Shown one piece after another: positions 258 to 8,910 of a DNA stretch of 33,636 nucleotides. Each line of letters starts with the position of its first letter. Positions within the stretch are counted from its first letter, which is position 1. The notes below the pieces were generated by a model that ran no database searches, was not told the DNA's origin, and was given only the letters and a program-made list of their open reading frames with translations. The position numbers were made by a program, and so were the translations under genes. Origin of the DNA: Candidatus Altimarinota bacterium (lineage in GTDB: Bacteria > Patescibacteriota > Gracilibacteria > BD1-5 > UBA6164); contig JANJUN010000048.1 in NCBI GenBank assembly GCA_024710565.1, positions 1 to 33,636 on the forward strand, given 5' to 3'.

Positions 258-1838
258 ATGACAGAAGCACAAAAACAATTACTTGAAAAACAACTTTGGA
301 GTATAGCTGATACTTTAAGATGAAAAATGGATGCAGATGAGTTTAGAGACTATATTTTAGGTTTTATATTTTATAAATATTTATCTGAAAAAGTAACTTT
401 AAAAGCTGATAAATTATTACATGAATGATGAATAAATAAATCTTATGAAGATTTACTTTGAAGTAATAATGAAACTTTAGAGATTTTAAAAGCCCTAAAA
501 ATTGAAGCAATAGATGATTTAGGGTATTTTTTATATCCACAAGAACTTTTTTCTTATATCGCTAAAAAATGAAATTCAACTTCTCAAAATGAAAGTGATA
601 ATTTTATACTTGAAGATTTAACAAAAATACTAAAAAATATTGAATCATCAACTATGTGAACTGATAGTGAAGATGATTTTGATAATTTGTTTGCTGATAT
701 GGATTTAACCAGTCAAAAACTTGGTAAAACTGTTGCTCTCAAAAATGAGCTTATAGCAAAAATTATGTGATATCTTAATAAAATTGATTTCAAACTAGAA
801 GATAGTCAAATAGATGTGCTATGAGATGCTTATGAATATTTAATCTGACAATTTGCAAGTTGAGCTGGTAAAAAAGCATGAGAATTTTACACTCCTCAAG
901 AAGTTTCAAAGATACTAGCAAAACTCGTTACATCAAATAAGAAAAAACTAAGAAATGTTTATGACCCTACTTGTTGAAGTGGTTCGCTACTTTTAAGAGT
1001 TGCAAAAAAAGTTGATGAAGTAGGAGCATTTTATGGTCAAGAATTAAATAATACGACTTACAATCTTGCTCGTATGAACATGATTTTGCACGATGTGAAT
1101 TATAGAAGATTTGATATAAAAAACTGAGATACTTTAGAACATCCAGAACACATGTGAAAAAAGTTTGAAGCAATAGTTGCAAATCCTCCTTTTTCAGCTC
1201 ATTGGAAAGCAAATGACCTAAAATTAACTGATGATAGATTTTGAATTTATGGAAAATTAGCACCAGCTACAAAAGCAGATTTTGCTTTTATTCAGCATAT
1301 GATTTATCACTTAGATGATAATGGAACTATGGCAGTTGTTGTGCCTCATTGAGTGCTTTTTAGATGAGCAAGTGAATGACATATTAGAAGATATTTAATA
1401 GAAAATAGAAATTATTTAGATGCTGTTATTTGATTACCTGCAAATATATTTTTTGGTACTTCAATACCGACTTGTATTTTAGTTTTCAAAAAATGTAGAG
1501 CTAATCCAGATGATGTTTTATTTATTGATGCATCAAATGATTTTGAGAAAAATAAGAATCAAAATAGACTGAGAGAAGAAGATATTGAGAAAATAATTAC
1601 AACTTATAAAAAAAGAGAAGAAATTGAAAAATATTCTCACAAAGCAAGTTTAGAGGAAATAAAAGAAAATGATTACAACTTAAATATTCCTCGTTATGTT
1701 GATACTTTTGAGGAAGAAGAACAAATTGATTTAGATGTAGTTGCTGAAAGACTTTTGAAAATAGAAGAAGAAAGTAAAGAAATAGATGAAAAAATTAAAA
1801 GTTTTTGTGAAGAATTAGGGATAAAAAGTCCTGTTTAG
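258..1838 (+). CDS. hsdM: Type I restriction-modification DNA methyltransferase subunit HsdM
   Basis: This 526-residue N6-adenine methyltransferase is the modification subunit that works with HsdS (and HsdR) to protect host sites. The N-terminal part (about 1-170) matches the helical HsdM_N domain ([23 protein letters not shown]). The SAM-binding motif I, DPTCGSGS, begins at residue 236, and the catalytic NPPF motif is at 309-312. The first glycine of motif I is encoded by TGA, so the protein is full length only with UGA read as Gly. Length is normal for the family. It is first in an operon that continues through hsdS and hsdR, and it ends in TAG 12 bases before the structured RNA at 1851. 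Identification is secure. Confidence 0.96.
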
Positions 1839-1850
1839 GGAATAAAAAAA

Positions 1851-1913
1851 GAGTTTAGCACCGTAAAATTACAAAAGCAAACACGAGAAATTAGGACGAA
1901 CCAGACTAAACTC
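1851..1913 (+). ncRNA. Structured RNA resembling the abiF RNA motif, upstream of an Abi_2/HEPN gene
   Basis: A perfect 8-bp stem (GAGTTTAG at 1851-1858 with CTAAACTC at 1906-1913) closes a 47-base A-rich internal region. The element starts 12 bases after the hsdM stop and ends 40 bases before the Abi_2 gene. It has no U-tract, so it is not a terminator. The known abiF RNA motif is a conserved ncRNA found just upstream of abiF genes, which is exactly this context. What I see is the stem and the position; assignment to the family is inference and needs a covariance-model search. The likely role is as the RNA antitoxin or guide-like partner of the downstream HEPN protein. Confidence 0.62.
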
Positions 1914-1953
1914 AAAAAATATTTTATATAAAATTTAAAAATATCAAATAAAT

Positions 1954-2883
1954 ATGTCAGATATGTCAGAAAAGATAAAATTTTCAAAACCTATATTAAA
2001 TATTGATGAAAAAATAAAGTTATTAAAAGAAAAAAGATGACTTATTATTGAGGACGAAGAAAAAGCAAAACATGATTTATTACATATTTGATATTTTAGA
2101 CTTACTTGATATTTTAAATTTTTTCAAGACAAAGAAACAAATATATTTAAAGAATGAACTACATTTAAACAAGTTGTTGATTTGTATAGTTTTGATAGAA
2201 AATTAAGACTTTTAACTCTTGATGCTATTGAAAAAATAGAAATATCTTTGAAATCAAATATTAATTATACTTTATATAAAGATTATTGAGCTTTTTGGTA
2301 TTTAAATAGAGATTTATTTTATTTAAAAAGCGAAAATTTTTTAAATATATATGATTGATTACTGCTTTTAATAAAAGAAAAACAAACTAATTCATCTTCA
2401 ATATTTGTAAAAAATTATTTTGAAAAATATGAATGAGAATATTTGCCAAGTTGGATGTTATTTGAAGAATTAACTATTTGAGAAGTTTCTAATATTTATA
2501 GAACTTTAAAATGAAATATTCAAAAAGATATTTCTAGAGTTTATTGAATTGATTTTATTGATTTAAATAATTGGATTCAATTAATAAGAACTATAAGAAA
2601 TATTTCAGCACATCAAGCAAGATTATGGAATAGAGAATATATTATTAAGTTATCAAAAGATGATAAAACTATATGAAATAAATTACAAAGATATATTGAT
2701 GAAACAGACGAGGTAATCCCAAATTATTATAATACTACTTTAGTTTTGAATTATTTATTACAAAAAATAAACAAAAACTTTAGTCGGTTAGATGATTTAA
2801 AGGATTTATTTAATGAATATAGTACTATAGATAAAGAAAAAATGTGATTTTTTGAAAATTGGGAATTAGAATTTGAAACATAA
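1954..2883 (+). CDS. Abi_2 (AbiD/AbiF-like) HEPN abortive-infection protein
   Basis: This 309-residue protein belongs to the Abi_2 family, which acts in abortive phage infection and carries a HEPN ribonuclease fold. Near the N terminus (about residues 40-55) is the family signature HIGYFRLTGYF. The putative catalytic HEPN motif R-x4-H is RNISAH at residues 215-220, inside the run [11 protein letters not shown]. The first ATG (1954) is followed in frame by another at 1963, so the true start may be nine bases later. Unlike most genes here it has a dedicated upstream structured RNA (1851-1913) and a hairpin-rich 3' region. In-frame TGA codons as glycine show that it is adapted to this host's code. 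The expected activity is RNA cleavage released on phage infection or loss of the RNA partner; the target is unknown. Confidence 0.88.
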
Positions 2884-2887
2884 AAAA

Positions 2888-2948
2888 ATCCACCTATTGG
2901 GTTTCCCCTCGTGGATATTGGTAAACCAAGTTTATTCATAATTGAATA
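2888..2948 (+). other. Cluster of three successive hairpins after the Abi_2 gene
   Basis: Three inverted repeats lie head to tail. ATCCAC/GTGGAT (2888-2893, 2911-2916) encloses a possible inner GGG/CCC pair. TTGGT/ACCAA follows around 2918-2929. TTTATTCA/TGAATAAA has 8-bp arms with a 4-base loop, near 2930-2949. It is the most GC-rich stretch of this intergenic region. None has a proper U-tract, so a simple terminator is unlikely. It may be a 3' RNA structure of the toxin mRNA or a second ncRNA. Confidence 0.5.
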
Positions 2949-2988
2949 AAATGCAAATATTTTATCAATTTTCTTTATAAAAATACAC

Positions 2989-3021
2989 TTGACAATTTTT
3001 AATATAAAAATTTTTTATGAT
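2989..3021 (+). promoter_or_regulatory. Possible internal promoter and AT-rich hairpin before the small membrane protein gene
   Basis: A consensus TTGACA box (2989-2994) is followed by TATGAT at 3016-3021, but the 21-base spacing is too long for a typical promoter. Between them is an AT-only inverted repeat (AATTTTTA/TAAAAATT, 2994-3001 and 3005-3012) running into T residues, which could be a weak terminator. The arrangement suggests that the upstream toxin module and the downstream hsdS part can be expressed separately. Confidence 0.35.
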
Positions 3022-3062
3022 AACAAAAAGCAAAACTGTAATATTTTTTAACTAAAAATTAA

Positions 3063-3395
3063 ATGTGAAGAAAATATAATAATAAATGAATTCCTTTCAT
3101 TTGGATACTTGTATGAATATGAGTAATTTTATTTTTAATTATTTCAGTTATTCAATTTGTATTTTGGTATTATCCAAAAAATTGTATTTTCTTTGAATTT
3201 GATTTTTCAAAAAAATGTGTGAGTAATACTTGGGAATATATAACAACTTGAAATAAAGAAAAAGTCAATAAATGAGTGGAAGATTGAATAAATAATTATA
3301 TAGATTATAGAGTAGAAAAAATAGAAAATAAAGCAGAAAGGATACAAGAAAAACTAAAAAATATTAGTATTACCGAAACTTGAACTACTAAATAA
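3063..3395 (+). CDS. Small single-pass membrane protein, unknown function, inside RM operon
   Basis: This 110-residue protein is open only with UGA as Gly; the second codon is TGA. A short basic N terminus is followed by a hydrophobic segment at about residues 10-34 (PFIWILVGIG, then aliphatic and aromatic residues to WYY). A Cys-containing region comes next, then a charged stretch from about residue 70 likely to form a coiled coil (YRVEKIENKAERIQEKLKN). No known domain is recognised. It sits between the Abi_2 gene and hsdS, 7 bases before the hsdS start, so it is probably co-translated with hsdS. The orientation and role of the membrane anchor are unknown. Confidence 0.75.
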
Positions 3396-3402
3396 AAAAA
3401 TT

Positions 3403-4569
3403 ATGACAACAAAACTAAAAATACCAAAAATAAGATTTAAAGAATTTTCTTGAGAGTGGGAAGAAAAGAAACTTTGAGAAGTTTCGCAAGTTATTACAAA
3501 GTGAACTACTCCAAGTTATTTTTCTAAAACTTGAATAAAGTTTATAAAAATAGAATGTTTAAATGATAATATTATTGATAATAGTAAGTGTTTGTTTATA
3601 TCTGATGAAATTCATAACAAAGAACTAAAAAGATCTATATTAGAAGAAAATGATTTATTATTTGCAATTGCTTGAGCTACAATCTGAAAATGTACTATAG
3701 TTAAAAAAGAAAATTTACCATCAAATACAAATCAAGCTCTTTCAATTATAAGATTGAAAAATAATATTTCACATGATTATGTTTTATCAATTTTAAAATC
3801 AGTTCAAATGAGAAAATATATTTTATTGAACATCTCAGTTTGAGCTCAACCAAACTTGAATTTAGAACAAATGTGAAATTTTAATCTTAATCTCCCATCA
3901 CTTCCAGAACAACAAAAAATTAGTCAATTCCTATCATCAGTTGATGAAAAAATAGAAAAAATAAAAGAAAAAAAGAAAAATATTGAAGATTACAAAAAAT
4001 GAGTTATGCAAAAAATTTTTAACCAAGAAATTAGATTTAAAGATGAAAATTGAGAAGAGTTTGGAGAGTGGGAGGAGAAGAGTTTAGGAAAATTATCAAA
4101 AATAACTACTTGAAGTTCAAATAGAGAAGATTCAAATTTAGATTGAGAATATACTTTTTTTGATAGGTCTGAAGATATAAGAACAAGTAATATTTACTTA
4201 TTTGACTGTGAAGCTATAATCGTACCATGAGAATGACAAAGATTTATGCCAAAATATTTTATAGGAAAATTTGATTTACACCAAAGGTCATATGCAATTA
4301 TGAACTTTGAAAATTTAAACTGAAGATTTTTATATTATTATATAATTCAAAATCAAAACTATTTTTTATCTCAAGCCGTTGGTTCAACTGTTAAATCTTT
4401 AAGATTACCAATGTTCCAAAAAATGCCTATTAATCTTCCAACTTTAAAAGAACAAGAAAAAATCGCAGATTTTTTATCTGGAATTGATGAAAAAATTGAA
4501 AAAGTAAGTGATGAACTTGAAAAAATGGAAGAGTTTAAAAAAGGTTTGTTGCAAGGGATGTTTGTTTAA
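3403..4569 (+). CDS. hsdS: Type I restriction-modification specificity subunit HsdS
   Basis: This 388-residue protein recognises the bipartite DNA target for the HsdM/HsdR complex. Two target-recognition domains are visible. The first starts with GEWEEKKLGEVS (about residue 17) and ends in [20 protein letters not shown]; the second starts with [12 protein letters not shown] (about residue 227) and ends in [20 protein letters not shown]. Each is followed by a long helical spacer ([18 protein letters not shown] and [18 protein letters not shown]) that sets the distance between half sites. The internal repeat and the length are typical of a complete HsdS. Several glycines are TGA codons. It is preceded by the small membrane protein and followed 23 bases later by a small unknown gene. 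Confidence 0.95.
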
Positions 4570-4592: not shown

Positions 4593-4913
4593 ATGGATAA
4601 AAAAGAAATTTTTTTACAAGCAATTAATAATAAAAAAATTGTAAAAGTAAAAGTAAACACTTATGAGAAATGAATAATTGAAAGACATTGTATTCCATTT
4701 GACTTTTGACCTTCAAGAAGAAATTTAAAAGTTAATCCTGATAGATTTCATTTATATGATTTAGATAGTCCAGATAATAAACATAATCTTTCTATTATTC
4801 CTGAACAATTAATTAATATAGAAATTACTGAAGAAACTTTTAATCCTTGAAATTATGTTACATGGACTCCAATAAATTGGTTTTATAAAAGAGATTGGGG
4901 TATTTATTCTTAA
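4593..4913 (+). CDS. Small protein of unknown function in RM operon, weakly WYL-like
   Basis: This is a 106-residue soluble protein with no signal or membrane segment. The N-terminal part (KKEIFLQAINNKKIVKVKVN, then IIERHCIPFDFGPSRRN) resembles the strand pattern of WYL-type ligand-binding domains, with an Arg followed by a P-x-D/G turn, but the classic W-Y-L triplet is not clear. The C terminus is rich in aromatic residues (TWTPINWFYKRDW). It lies between hsdS and the Shedu-like nuclease and is 10 bases from the next start, so it is in the same transcription unit. It may be a regulator or small partner of the nuclease; this is inference from position only. Confidence 0.75.
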
Positions 4914-4923
4914 TTATCTAAAA

Positions 4924-6078
4924 ATGGAGAATTATTTTAATTTAATAGACGATGATTTATCAAAACTAAAAATCATTAAAAATACTTTTGACTGTATTTT
5001 ACAAGATTCTGAATGAAAATCTTTTAAATGATTTATTCTTTCAATTTCTACAAATAAAAAATCATATACTATTTGTGATGTTAATTTTCATATTTGAAAT
5101 GAATGAAAATATACTCCTAGATTAACTTTTAGAAAAACAAATGAAAATTTACAAGATAAAACAGTTGAAAGAAATAATGAATTTAAAATAATTAAATTTG
5201 ATAGGTCTGAAGATTGATATAAAGAATTTTGGAAAATGATATGATTTTTAAACTCTTTTAATGATATTATTGACTTATGAGAATTTAAAAATAGTTATTC
5301 AGTTATTTCAAAGAATATTACAATTGATAATATTTCAGAATGGTTTGATGAAGCTCCTGATGTGTGCCAAGATTTATTAATAAAACTACTTTCTTCTAAA
5401 TGAAAAATATCATGACAAGATTTACAAAATTTAATTGATAGAAAAGAACAATTTCGTTTATTTAAATGAATAGTAGAAAATAATCAAACTTTAATCAATG
5501 ATTTAAAAACTAAATATTGAACTTCTCAAACAGAGAAAACCATAGAAAGTTTTTTAAAAGATAATTCTTGGATTTTATGATTATCTCTTGATTCGGTGCA
5601 ATATAATGGAATTGACAAAACTTTAGATAAAATAAAAAGAGTTCAGGAACAAACACAAGGCTGACCAGAACATAATTTTGATATAGTAACCGAAACAACG
5701 GTTTTGAATATTGTTGAACTTAAGTTAGTTGATAAAAAACTTTTTAATGTATGATTAGACTCTCATAATAATCCTAAATGGAATTCAGAGTTTTTTGAAT
5801 ATGTTACACAAATTCAGAATTATAAAAGAGTTTTAGAACAAATATGAGATTCTCCTCTTATTCCTATTTGAAAAAAGGTAATTTTTCCTAGTACTTATTT
5901 AATAGTTTGAAGATTGTCGGATATGGATGAAAATCAAAAAAAAGTTTTTGATATGTATAGAAAAAATTTAAAAGAACCTAAAATATTTACTTATGATGAA
6001 TTATTAGAAAGAGCAGAAAAAATTGCAAACTCAAATAATGTAAATATTGAAGAAACTATAGATGATTTACCATTTTAA
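4924..6078 (+). CDS. Shedu-like immune nuclease (DUF4263/SduA family)
   Basis: This 384-residue protein has a C-terminal domain matching the Shedu (SduA, DUF4263) PD-(D/E)xK-type nuclease of single-gene anti-phage systems. The domain starts near FLKDNSWILG (about residue 210). The catalytic set is Asp253 in HNFDIV, then Glu265-x-Lys267 in NIVELKL, followed by YVTQIQNYKRVLEQ, the conserved Q/Y helix of the family. The N-terminal half (1-200) is a variable sensing region with a predicted beta-rich part (FILSISTNKKSYTICDV). Genes end to start are tightly packed (10 bases upstream, 12 downstream). Placement between hsdS and hsdR makes it cargo of the restriction operon. The family is clear; the trigger is unknown. 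Confidence 0.85.
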
Positions 6079-6090
6079 TTTTCCAAAACT

Positions 6091-8910
6091 ATGAACAACA
6101 TCCAAACTGAAGCACAATTAGAAGAAAATCTAATTAAACAATTAGAAAATCTAGAATATGATTATGTAACTATAAAAGACGAAGAAGATTTGATTAAAAA
6201 TCTAAAAACTCAAATAGAAACACATAATTATAAAAGCCTAGATTGAAAGACTTTATCAAAACAAGAATTTGATAGAGTTTTAAATCATCTCAATAAATGA
6301 AATGTATTTGAAAGAGCAAAAATTCTAAGAGATAAAATGCCTTTAGAGCTTGATAATTGAGATATAAAATACATCGAGTTTATAGATATGGATAATTGGT
6401 GTCAAAATGAGTATCAGGTAACTCATCAAATCACAATGGAATGAAGCTATAAAAATCGTTATGATGTAACTTTGCTTGTGAATTGACTTCCTCTTGTTGC
6501 TATTGAATTAAAAAGAAGATGACTTGAATTAAAAGAAGCATTTAATCAAATCGGTAGATATCATAAACATAGCTTTTGGACTGGATATGGACTTTTTCAA
6601 TACATTCAAATATTTGTTGTTTCTAATTGAGTAAATACTAAATTTTTAGCAAATAATAGAAAACAAACTTTTAAACAAACATTTTATTGGGCAAAAGAAG
6701 ATAATGATATTATTTCAAATCTTGAAGACTTTACAAAAGTGTTTTTAGAGCCTTGTCATCTCAGTAAGATGATTACAAAATATATAGTTCTAAATGAAAC
6801 AGAAAAAATCTTGATGGTTTTGAGGCCTTACCAATATTATGCTTGTGAAAATATTGTTTCAAGAGTAAAAAACTCATCTAAAAACTGATATATCTGGCAC
6901 ACAACTTGAAGTTGAAAAACTCTGACTTCTTTTAAAGTAAGTCAAATACTTACAAAAATGCCAAATGTTGATAAAGTAGTTTTTGTTGTAGATAGAAAAG
7001 ATTTAGATTTTCAAACTACAAAAGAATTTAACTCATTTTCAGAAGGTTCTATTGACGGAACTGATAATACAAAAAGCCTTGTAAAACAATTTTCAGACCC
7101 AAATACTCCACTTATTGTCACAACTATTCAAAAATTAAATACTGCCATTTCAAAAGAAAAACATACTAAATTGATGAACGAAGTAAGTGATAAAAAAATA
7201 GTATTTATTTTTGATGAATGTCATAGAAGCCAGTTTTGAGAAACTCATGATAAAATCAAGAAATTCTTTACAAATCATCAAATGATTTGATTTACTTGAA
7301 CTCCTATTTTTGCTGAAAATAATAATAACAATAAAACTACAAAAGACCTTTTTGATGAATGTTTACATAAATATGTTATCACTGATGCGATAAAAGATGA
7401 AAATGTATTAAAATTTTCTATTGAATATATAAATACTTTTAAAACAAAATCAGATTTTGACTTAAAATCTGATGAAAAAGTAGAAGATATTGATACAAGA
7501 GAAGTTTATGAAGCACCAGAAAGACTGGAAAAAGTAGTTGATTATATTTTAAATATTCATAATACAAAAACTCATAATAGAGATTTTACATCTATGTTTT
7601 GTGTGAGTTCAGTTGATGTTTTGATAAAATATTATGAATTATTTAAAAAGAAAAATAAAAATCTAAATATTGCTACAATATTTTCATATTGAGTAAATGA
7701 AGATGATAAAGAAGCAAATGGATTATATGATGAAGTAAGTTTTGAACCTACAAACATAAATTCTCATTCAAGAGATGCTTTAGAATCATTTATTTGAGAT
7801 TATAACAAGACTTTTAATACAGCTTATACAACAAAAGATACAAAAGAGTTTTATAATTATTACAATGATATTGCAAAAAGAGTAAAAGCAAGAGAAATAG
7901 ATATTTTGCTTGTTGTAAATATGTTTTTGACTGGATTTGATTCTAAAACTCTAAATACTTTGTATGTTGATAAAAACTTAAAATATCATTGACTTATTCA
8001 AGCATTTTCAAGAACTAATAGAATCTTAGACGATAGAAAATCTCAATGAAATATAGTTTGTTTTAGAAACTTAAAACCACAAGTTGATGAAGCAATTGCA
8101 CTTTTTTCAAACAAAGATGCCAATGAAATAATTTTAATGGAACCACTTGAAAAATACATAGAATATTTTAATAAAGCATTAAAAGATTTAAAAGATATTG
8201 TTCCATGAGTTTCTGATGTAGATAATTTGGAATCAGAAAATGACCAATTTGAATTTGTAAAATCATTTAGAGAACTTTTGAGACTTAAAAATATCTTAGA
8301 GAGTTTTTCAGAGTTCAAATTTGAATCTTTAAATATAGATAAACAAGAATTTGAAGACTATAAATCAAAATATCTTGATATTTATGATAAAGTGAAAAAA
8401 GACCATTCTAAGGAGAAAGTATCTATTCTAGAAAATGTTGATTTTGAACTTGAACTTATACAAAGGGATGATATAACTATTGATTATATTTTATCACTTT
8501 TAGCTAAACTTTCTAAAAAAGAAGATAGCGGAGATTATGAAAAAAGAAAAAAAGCTATTCTTGATATGGTTTCATGAGAAGTGAGTTTGAGAAGTAAAAA
8601 AGAACTTATTGAGAGATTTATAGAAGAAAACCTTATAAATATCACAAATGAAGATGAAGTTGCTTGAGAGTTTGAAAAATTTTTATTAAGAGAAAAATAC
8701 AAAGAATTTGAAAAAATATGTTCTGAAGAATGACTTGATAAATCTAAATTTGAAAAAATAATAACTTCTTATATTTATACAGAAAAATTACCACTTAGAG
8801 AAGAACTGATTTGAGCTTTAGAAAAATCACCAAATTTATTACAAAGAAATTCTATTTTTGAAAAATTAAAACAAAAATTGATTGATTTTGTTGAGAAGTT
8901 TGGGGAATAG
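6091..8910 (+). CDS. hsdR: Type I restriction endonuclease/translocase subunit HsdR
   Basis: This 939-residue motor and nuclease subunit translocates and cuts unmodified DNA. The N-terminal nuclease domain carries the E-x-K pair at Glu139/Lys141 (VAIELKRRG), followed by QIGRYHKH. The SF2 helicase core has Walker A TTGSGKT at 271-277, with both glycines encoded by TGA, DECH at 375-378, and motif III-like FTGTPIF shortly after. A C-terminal helical region (from about residue 690) contacts the methylase. It begins 12 bases after the Shedu-like gene and ends in TAG. Under the standard code it falls apart into fragments; with UGA as Gly it is intact and of normal length. Confidence 0.96.

Follow-up and report, generated by a model that had tools for sequence, protein, structure and literature searches.

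An AbiF-family HEPN gene in the type I restriction-modification operon of a code-25 bacterium and a candidate RNA convergent with its 3′ end

Introduction

Does an AbiF-type gene that lies inside a type I restriction-modification (R-M) operon have an RNA partner, and if so, where is that partner encoded? We address this question for abi2, a gene in a 33,636-nt stretch of DNA (hereafter the window; contig JANJUN010000048.1 of assembly GCA_024710565.1) from a Candidatus Altimarinota bacterium. A preliminary description of this DNA had proposed that an inverted repeat upstream of abi2 is an abiF RNA. It was right about the protein and its neighbourhood and wrong about the RNA; its observation is partly confirmed and its interpretation partly supported. 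The locus was compared with 353 genomes of the same class and with other AbiF loci (G and L numbers denote genomes and loci, respectively).

Results

The region was read with code 25 (UGA = glycine), and the genes of the hsd operon all lie on the plus strand. The methyltransferase subunit gene hsdM (258-1838; NCBIfam TIGR00497, 2.8e-138; Pfam N6_Mtase, 6.7e-117) is followed by abi2 (1954-2883), a 110-aa small membrane-type ORF (3063-3395; weak match to PADLOC 2TM_IV, 1e-4), the specificity subunit gene hsdS (3403-4569; Pfam Methylase_S, 1.2e-36), a 106-aa ORF (4593-4913) and the restriction subunit gene hsdR (6091-8910; NCBIfam TIGR00348, 8.9e-155). A gene for a Shedu-type SduA nuclease (4924-6078; Pfam SduA_C, 6.3e-16; PADLOC SduA, 9.5e-32) is also placed within the operon, between hsdS and hsdR. 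The position of abi2 inside a type I R-M operon, 3′ of hsdM, is as first described, but the gene is not directly beside hsdS because the 110-aa ORF intervenes. The assignment to a UGA-recoding lineage is borne out by the abi2 frame, which is read in code 25 and has 12 in-frame TGA codons, several of them at conserved glycines (e.g., G29, G46 and G298).

The abi2 product (309 aa) matches Pfam Abi_2 (PF07751) at 3e-51 with a score of 174.8 (cut-off 25.6), covering model positions 3-184 of 184, and PADLOC AbiD at 2.2e-67. A chain of PDB 8vz6 could be aligned to nearly the entire protein (5.2e-40), and the AlphaFold2 model (mean pLDDT 90.2) had a single confident PDB match in Foldseek, again 8vz6 (‘PbAbiF dimer bound to ncRNA’; E 6.6e-16, TM 0.82). 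The R-x4-H HEPN motif, RNISAH, is found at residues 215-220, and R215, N216 and H220 are invariant among 10 relatives and likewise among 28. Loss of the R/H pair in close homologues had been set beforehand as a point of refutation; R215 and H220 do not vary. Membership of the abi2 product in the AbiF/AbiD family, as a genuine, full-length HEPN protein, is secure. The equivalents of the R-x4-H pair in AbiFCd, R202 and H207, are required for toxicity, and R/H-dependent growth inhibition has been described for AbiFCd and, as cited there, for PbAbiF (PMC12373285). By analogy, the abi2 product would be expected to act as an RNase. No match was found in viral contigs scanned with the abi2 protein alone.

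The surroundings of abi2 were compared with those of eight further hsdM genes of this type from the family, one of which (G499) ends at a contig edge. The sequence after hsdM varies from genome to genome. Ahead of hsdS, G480 has a NYN-domain gene, G494 has a PemK-like toxin gene and G489 has abi2; G464, G496 and G501 have unnamed genes of 172-186 aa, and G460 has a gene of 114 aa (slot loci L123, L125, L126, L128, L129, L130 and L006, in addition to the window). The G460 gene, which follows hsdM after a short spacer and is the sole cargo there, is 80% identical over 90 aa to the 110-aa ORF that forms the second cargo gene in the window. This suggests that the window differs from G460 by an insertion of ~1.2 kb, roughly 1839-3050, that contains abi2 and both of the hairpins described below. 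On this comparison, the hsdM-hsdS gap is an exchangeable cargo slot in the family, occupied by Abi_2, NYN, PemK-like, small membrane protein and unnamed genes. AbiF in an R-M operon is not new in itself; Abi2/AbiF/AbiD was already listed as ‘embedded in R-M operons’ in 2013 (Anantharaman 2013, PMC3710099).

The element first described upstream of abi2 exists. A perfect 8-bp inverted repeat (GAGTTTAG/CTAAACTC; 1851-1858/1906-1913) spans 63 nt and ends 40 nt before the gene for the Abi_2 protein with its R-x4-H motif. When 1839-1953 was shuffled 2000 times with dinucleotides preserved, 15% of the shuffles contained a perfect 8-bp repeat by chance; with three or more G-C pairs required, the share dropped to 0.3%, so the repeat is probably real. 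The plus strand of 1851-1913 has a predicted folding energy of -6.5 kcal/mol (z -1.5; 15 of 200 shuffles equally good) and no U-run, while the minus strand reaches -14.0 kcal/mol (z -3.2; 1 of 200 shuffles equally good) and runs into U7 at 1850-1844. We leave the strand unassigned; if the element is transcribed, the minus strand is likelier.

The identification of 1851-1913 as an abiF RNA on the plus strand was not upheld. Rfam scans detected no abiF (RF03085) in the whole window at the gathering cut-off, nor in 1800-1990 at E≤10; an RF03085 search of the window genome also returned nothing, and was equally silent in every control genome. Two covariance models built from relatives, R1 (from the abiF RNAs of eight relatives) and the wider R2, left 1851-1913 unmatched with filters off. 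The element is absent from the closest relative, G489, where 16 nt separate the hsdM stop codon from the beginning of abi2. Conservation of the stem had been put forward as a further check, and BLAST of 1839-1953 against the 353 class genomes gave no relative of the hairpin beside an Abi_2 gene among the matches listed. Matches with low E values were many; almost all of those listed fall on the A+T-rich tail (query 65-115) and they are therefore not evidence for the hairpin. We also considered the plus strand on account of the likeness of its AACCAGA to the canonical CACCAG, and rejected it for its lack of a U-run, model support and conservation.

It remains to consider the minus strand, where 1851-1913 would be a strongly diverged abiF RNA that serves as the antitoxin and is divergent from abi2, as are the canonical abiF RNAs upstream of the gene in six class relatives (L007, L008, L009, L010, L011 and L013). 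We regard this as improbable. The good fold and the U7 are in its favour, as is an orphan canonical abiF RNA in G575 (L191 1501-1537 (+), 49 bits), which lies just after hsdM, antisense between hsdM and the NYN-domain gene of a type I R-M operon, matching the window's upstream hairpin in slot and strand. These points are set against the unmatched models and the absence from G489, and G494 has a similarly placed minus-strand hairpin after hsdM beside its PemK-like cargo, which indicates that hairpins of this kind are not specific to abi2. No Abi_2 relative was found in G575. A second orphan abiF RNA match (36 bits) is located in G557 (L193, around 1501-1538 (-)), directly upstream of a Fic-family gene and on the same strand.

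A search of 95 AbiF loci with R1 at E≤1 yielded 85 matches in 81 loci, mostly close upstream of the gene. When these matches were aligned, two-sided changes were present at 8 of the 9 pairs, which none of 500 shuffles equalled, in an alignment that was fitted to the model and so leans towards its structure. Some Bacteroidales AbiF loci with no R1 match (L044 and L081) have a AAGCCTCTCAGGCG...TTGAGGGGCG element 3′ of the gene, possibly a variant abiF RNA.

Relatives of the abi2 protein are present in 11 of the 353 class genomes (the window's own included). The nearest, from G489 (L006), has 58% identity and has the gene order hsdM-abi2-hsdS in common with the window. The two proteins group together (SH-aLRT 100), and carriers of canonical abiF RNAs branch on both sides of this clade, suggesting that the ancestor of the pair probably had an abiF RNA. 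A trans-encoded canonical abiF RNA was sought in the window genome and not found. The simplest reading of this distribution would be that the window/G489 clade has lost, moved or changed its ancestral abiF RNA.

The EcoprrI hsd operon encodes PrrC, a HEPN anticodon nuclease that is restrained by the R-M complex. There is a small chance that abi2 has no RNA antitoxin and is checked in a similar way, with release when a phage inhibits the R-M enzyme; the hsd operon around abi2 is complete and has a slot for toxin-like cargo, the start of abi2 16 nt after hsdM in G489 suggests co-translation, and the missing canonical RNA in the window genome is consistent with such an arrangement. PrrC and other HEPN genes of R-M operons resemble abi2 in being toxin-like genes within a type I R-M operon (Anantharaman 2013, PMC3710099), but PrrC is placed in another HEPN group (PrrC/RloC/APECO1_4465) and has a fused ABC-ATPase (PMC3710099); the abi2 protein has neither feature. 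Control by the R-M complex would also depart from the characterised AbiF proteins, which are controlled by RNA (PMC12373285).

With respect to an RNA partner, a candidate is located at the other end of the gene, on the minus strand and convergent with abi2. What we take as the 3′ part of a candidate antitoxin RNA (2882-2916) consists of a hairpin at 2916-2888 (-) that leads into a U-run at 2888-2882 (-). The hairpin has an outer stem of 6 bp and an inner stem of 3 bp, separated by an asymmetric (2/5) internal loop and capped by a GAAA loop. L006 has a hairpin and U-run at the same place and on the same strand; across the pair, the outer stem is 6-7 bp long and the loop is GAAA or GUAA. RNAalifold predicted 8 pairs, four of which are changed on both sides and none broken, although this compares two sequences only and any conserved terminator would likewise show paired changes. 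The 60 nt located 5′ of the stem are identical at 35 of 60 positions without gaps between the window and L006, a value that none of 1000 shuffles reached, and include a putative promoter and leader (2917-2957 (-)), the promoter being weak. The 11-mer TTTGCATTTTA begins 41 nt before the stem in both. By itself, this shared 11-mer is not significant (17% of shuffles match it) and we discarded it as evidence; significance attaches only to the anchored 60-nt identity. A sigma-70 scan around the locus was uninformative (21 found, 16.4 expected).

The candidate is without the abiF sequence core. With filters off, 2916-2882 (-) scored an unconvincing 3.4 bits (E 7.6) against R1 and had no match to R2. 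Its asymmetric topology is rare: of 275 terminator-like hairpins in a 400-kb sample of G494, just 2 share it, but one of these two is an ordinary terminator following a tRNA-Met gene, which means that abiF-like topology alone is not specific. Overall, 2916-2882 (-) appears to be a better RNA candidate than the 1851-1913 hairpin. Alternatively, both minus-strand hairpins could simply terminate antisense transcription, and abi2 could be an unguarded or decaying cargo gene expressed at a low level from the hsd promoter. Antisense hairpins with U-runs are not rare in the family (in G494, 26 of the 168 co-directional gaps surveyed, about 15%), and the tRNA-Met example demonstrates that the topology can occur by chance. 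We nevertheless judge this reading unlikely, as the abi2 frame is intact with conserved catalytic residues, and the 3′ hairpin has retained its pairing through paired changes, next to a 5′ flank that is itself conserved.

The convergent position of the candidate RNA has a parallel in five sister loci of the same family (L110, L102, two in L103, and L177), in which a canonical-looking abiF RNA gene with a TTTGAC-N17-TATAAT promoter is convergent and located 3′ of the HEPN domain.

A separate observation concerns the toxin genes of these sister genomes. In the metagenome assemblies of G489 and G467, predicted reading frames join Abi_2 domains to Dus, DHFR, GalE and a family 2 glycosyltransferase (GT2) as in-frame fusions (L110 353-2218 (-); L102 1394-2767 (+); L103 1-1470 (+) and 1478-2944 (+)). 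The DNA between the fused domains encodes, on its opposite strand and within the frame, an abiF-type RNA gene with its promoter (TTTGAC-N17-TATAAT), hairpin and U-run, and the conserved linker ‘EAWxxLVxxLYxxYIKKSN’ is this gene read backwards. Besides the fused copies, no DHFR was found in G467 and no Dus in G489, and elsewhere in the family the unfused orthologues start at the fusion junction. In the GT2 fusion of L103, the Abi_2 match ends at position 143 of 184 and the R-x4-H region is missing, suggesting that it is probably an inactive toxin. L177 (about 1740-2020; G496, contig C39) retains an unfused remnant of the Abi_2 C-terminus, in which an antisense abiF RNA gene is embedded as in the fusions. 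This remnant has a stop just after the promoter region; its neighbours are a truncated type III methylase gene on one side and a RhuM/Fic gene on the other.

Discussion

We propose that the abi2 product is an AbiF toxin carried as cargo and held off by a convergent minus-strand RNA from its 3′ side, a scheme that we consider plausible as a whole but somewhat short of an even chance. In this scheme, the hsdM-hsdS gap of the type I R-M operon would carry the gene for an AbiF-type HEPN RNase toxin as exchangeable cargo. The AbiF membership, the conserved R-x4-H motif, the matching fold and the cargo slot are read from the sequence here. The remaining steps are modelled on PbAbiF and AbiFCd, by analogy with which the protein would dimerise, its HEPN site would cut RNA and stop growth, and a small structured RNA on the dimer would keep the toxin off until infection disturbs the balance. 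For the window copy, we infer that the controlling RNA would be the minus-strand candidate at the 3′ end of abi2 (about 2950-2882) and not the 1851-1913 hairpin, and that it may be a sequence-diverged counterpart of the abiF RNA found at the same convergent place in the sister loci.

A broader version of this proposal is more doubtful. It would hold that AbiF in this code-25 family is controlled by an antisense RNA gene at the 3′ end of the toxin gene, that the window and G489 carry a diverged, GNRA-capped form representing a new class of AbiF antitoxin RNA, and that the sister loci embed the canonical RNA gene in the toxin's own frame, with the toxin welded to sole-copy housekeeping enzymes.

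Of the known systems, AbiF with RCd22 of Clostridioides difficile (PMC12373285) and PbAbiF with its ncRNA (8vz6) are comparable to the window in their full-length homologous HEPN protein and R-N-x3-H site, and the predicted abi2 model has the 8vz6 fold. The window differs from both in having no recognisable upstream abiF RNA (RF03085) and in that its candidate RNA is downstream, convergent and without the conserved loop. The AbiD/AbiD1/AbiF abortive infection proteins of Lactococcus lactis belong to the same Abi_2 family, as reflected in the PADLOC AbiD match, whereas abi2 lies in the hsd operon of a code-25 lineage.

AbiF is the proposed single-HEPN ancestor of Cas13, and variation in its RNA partner therefore bears on the path from an RNA-bound toxin to an RNA-guided nuclease. 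An AbiF clade without a recognised RNA but with a convergent candidate offers a direct test of the extent to which the partner can diverge. The fusions, a side result of this analysis, may matter more than the window locus. Together with the cargo slot, toxin-enzyme fusions in which an antisense RNA gene is embedded would be a case of one piece of DNA shared by a toxin and an RNA antitoxin gene.
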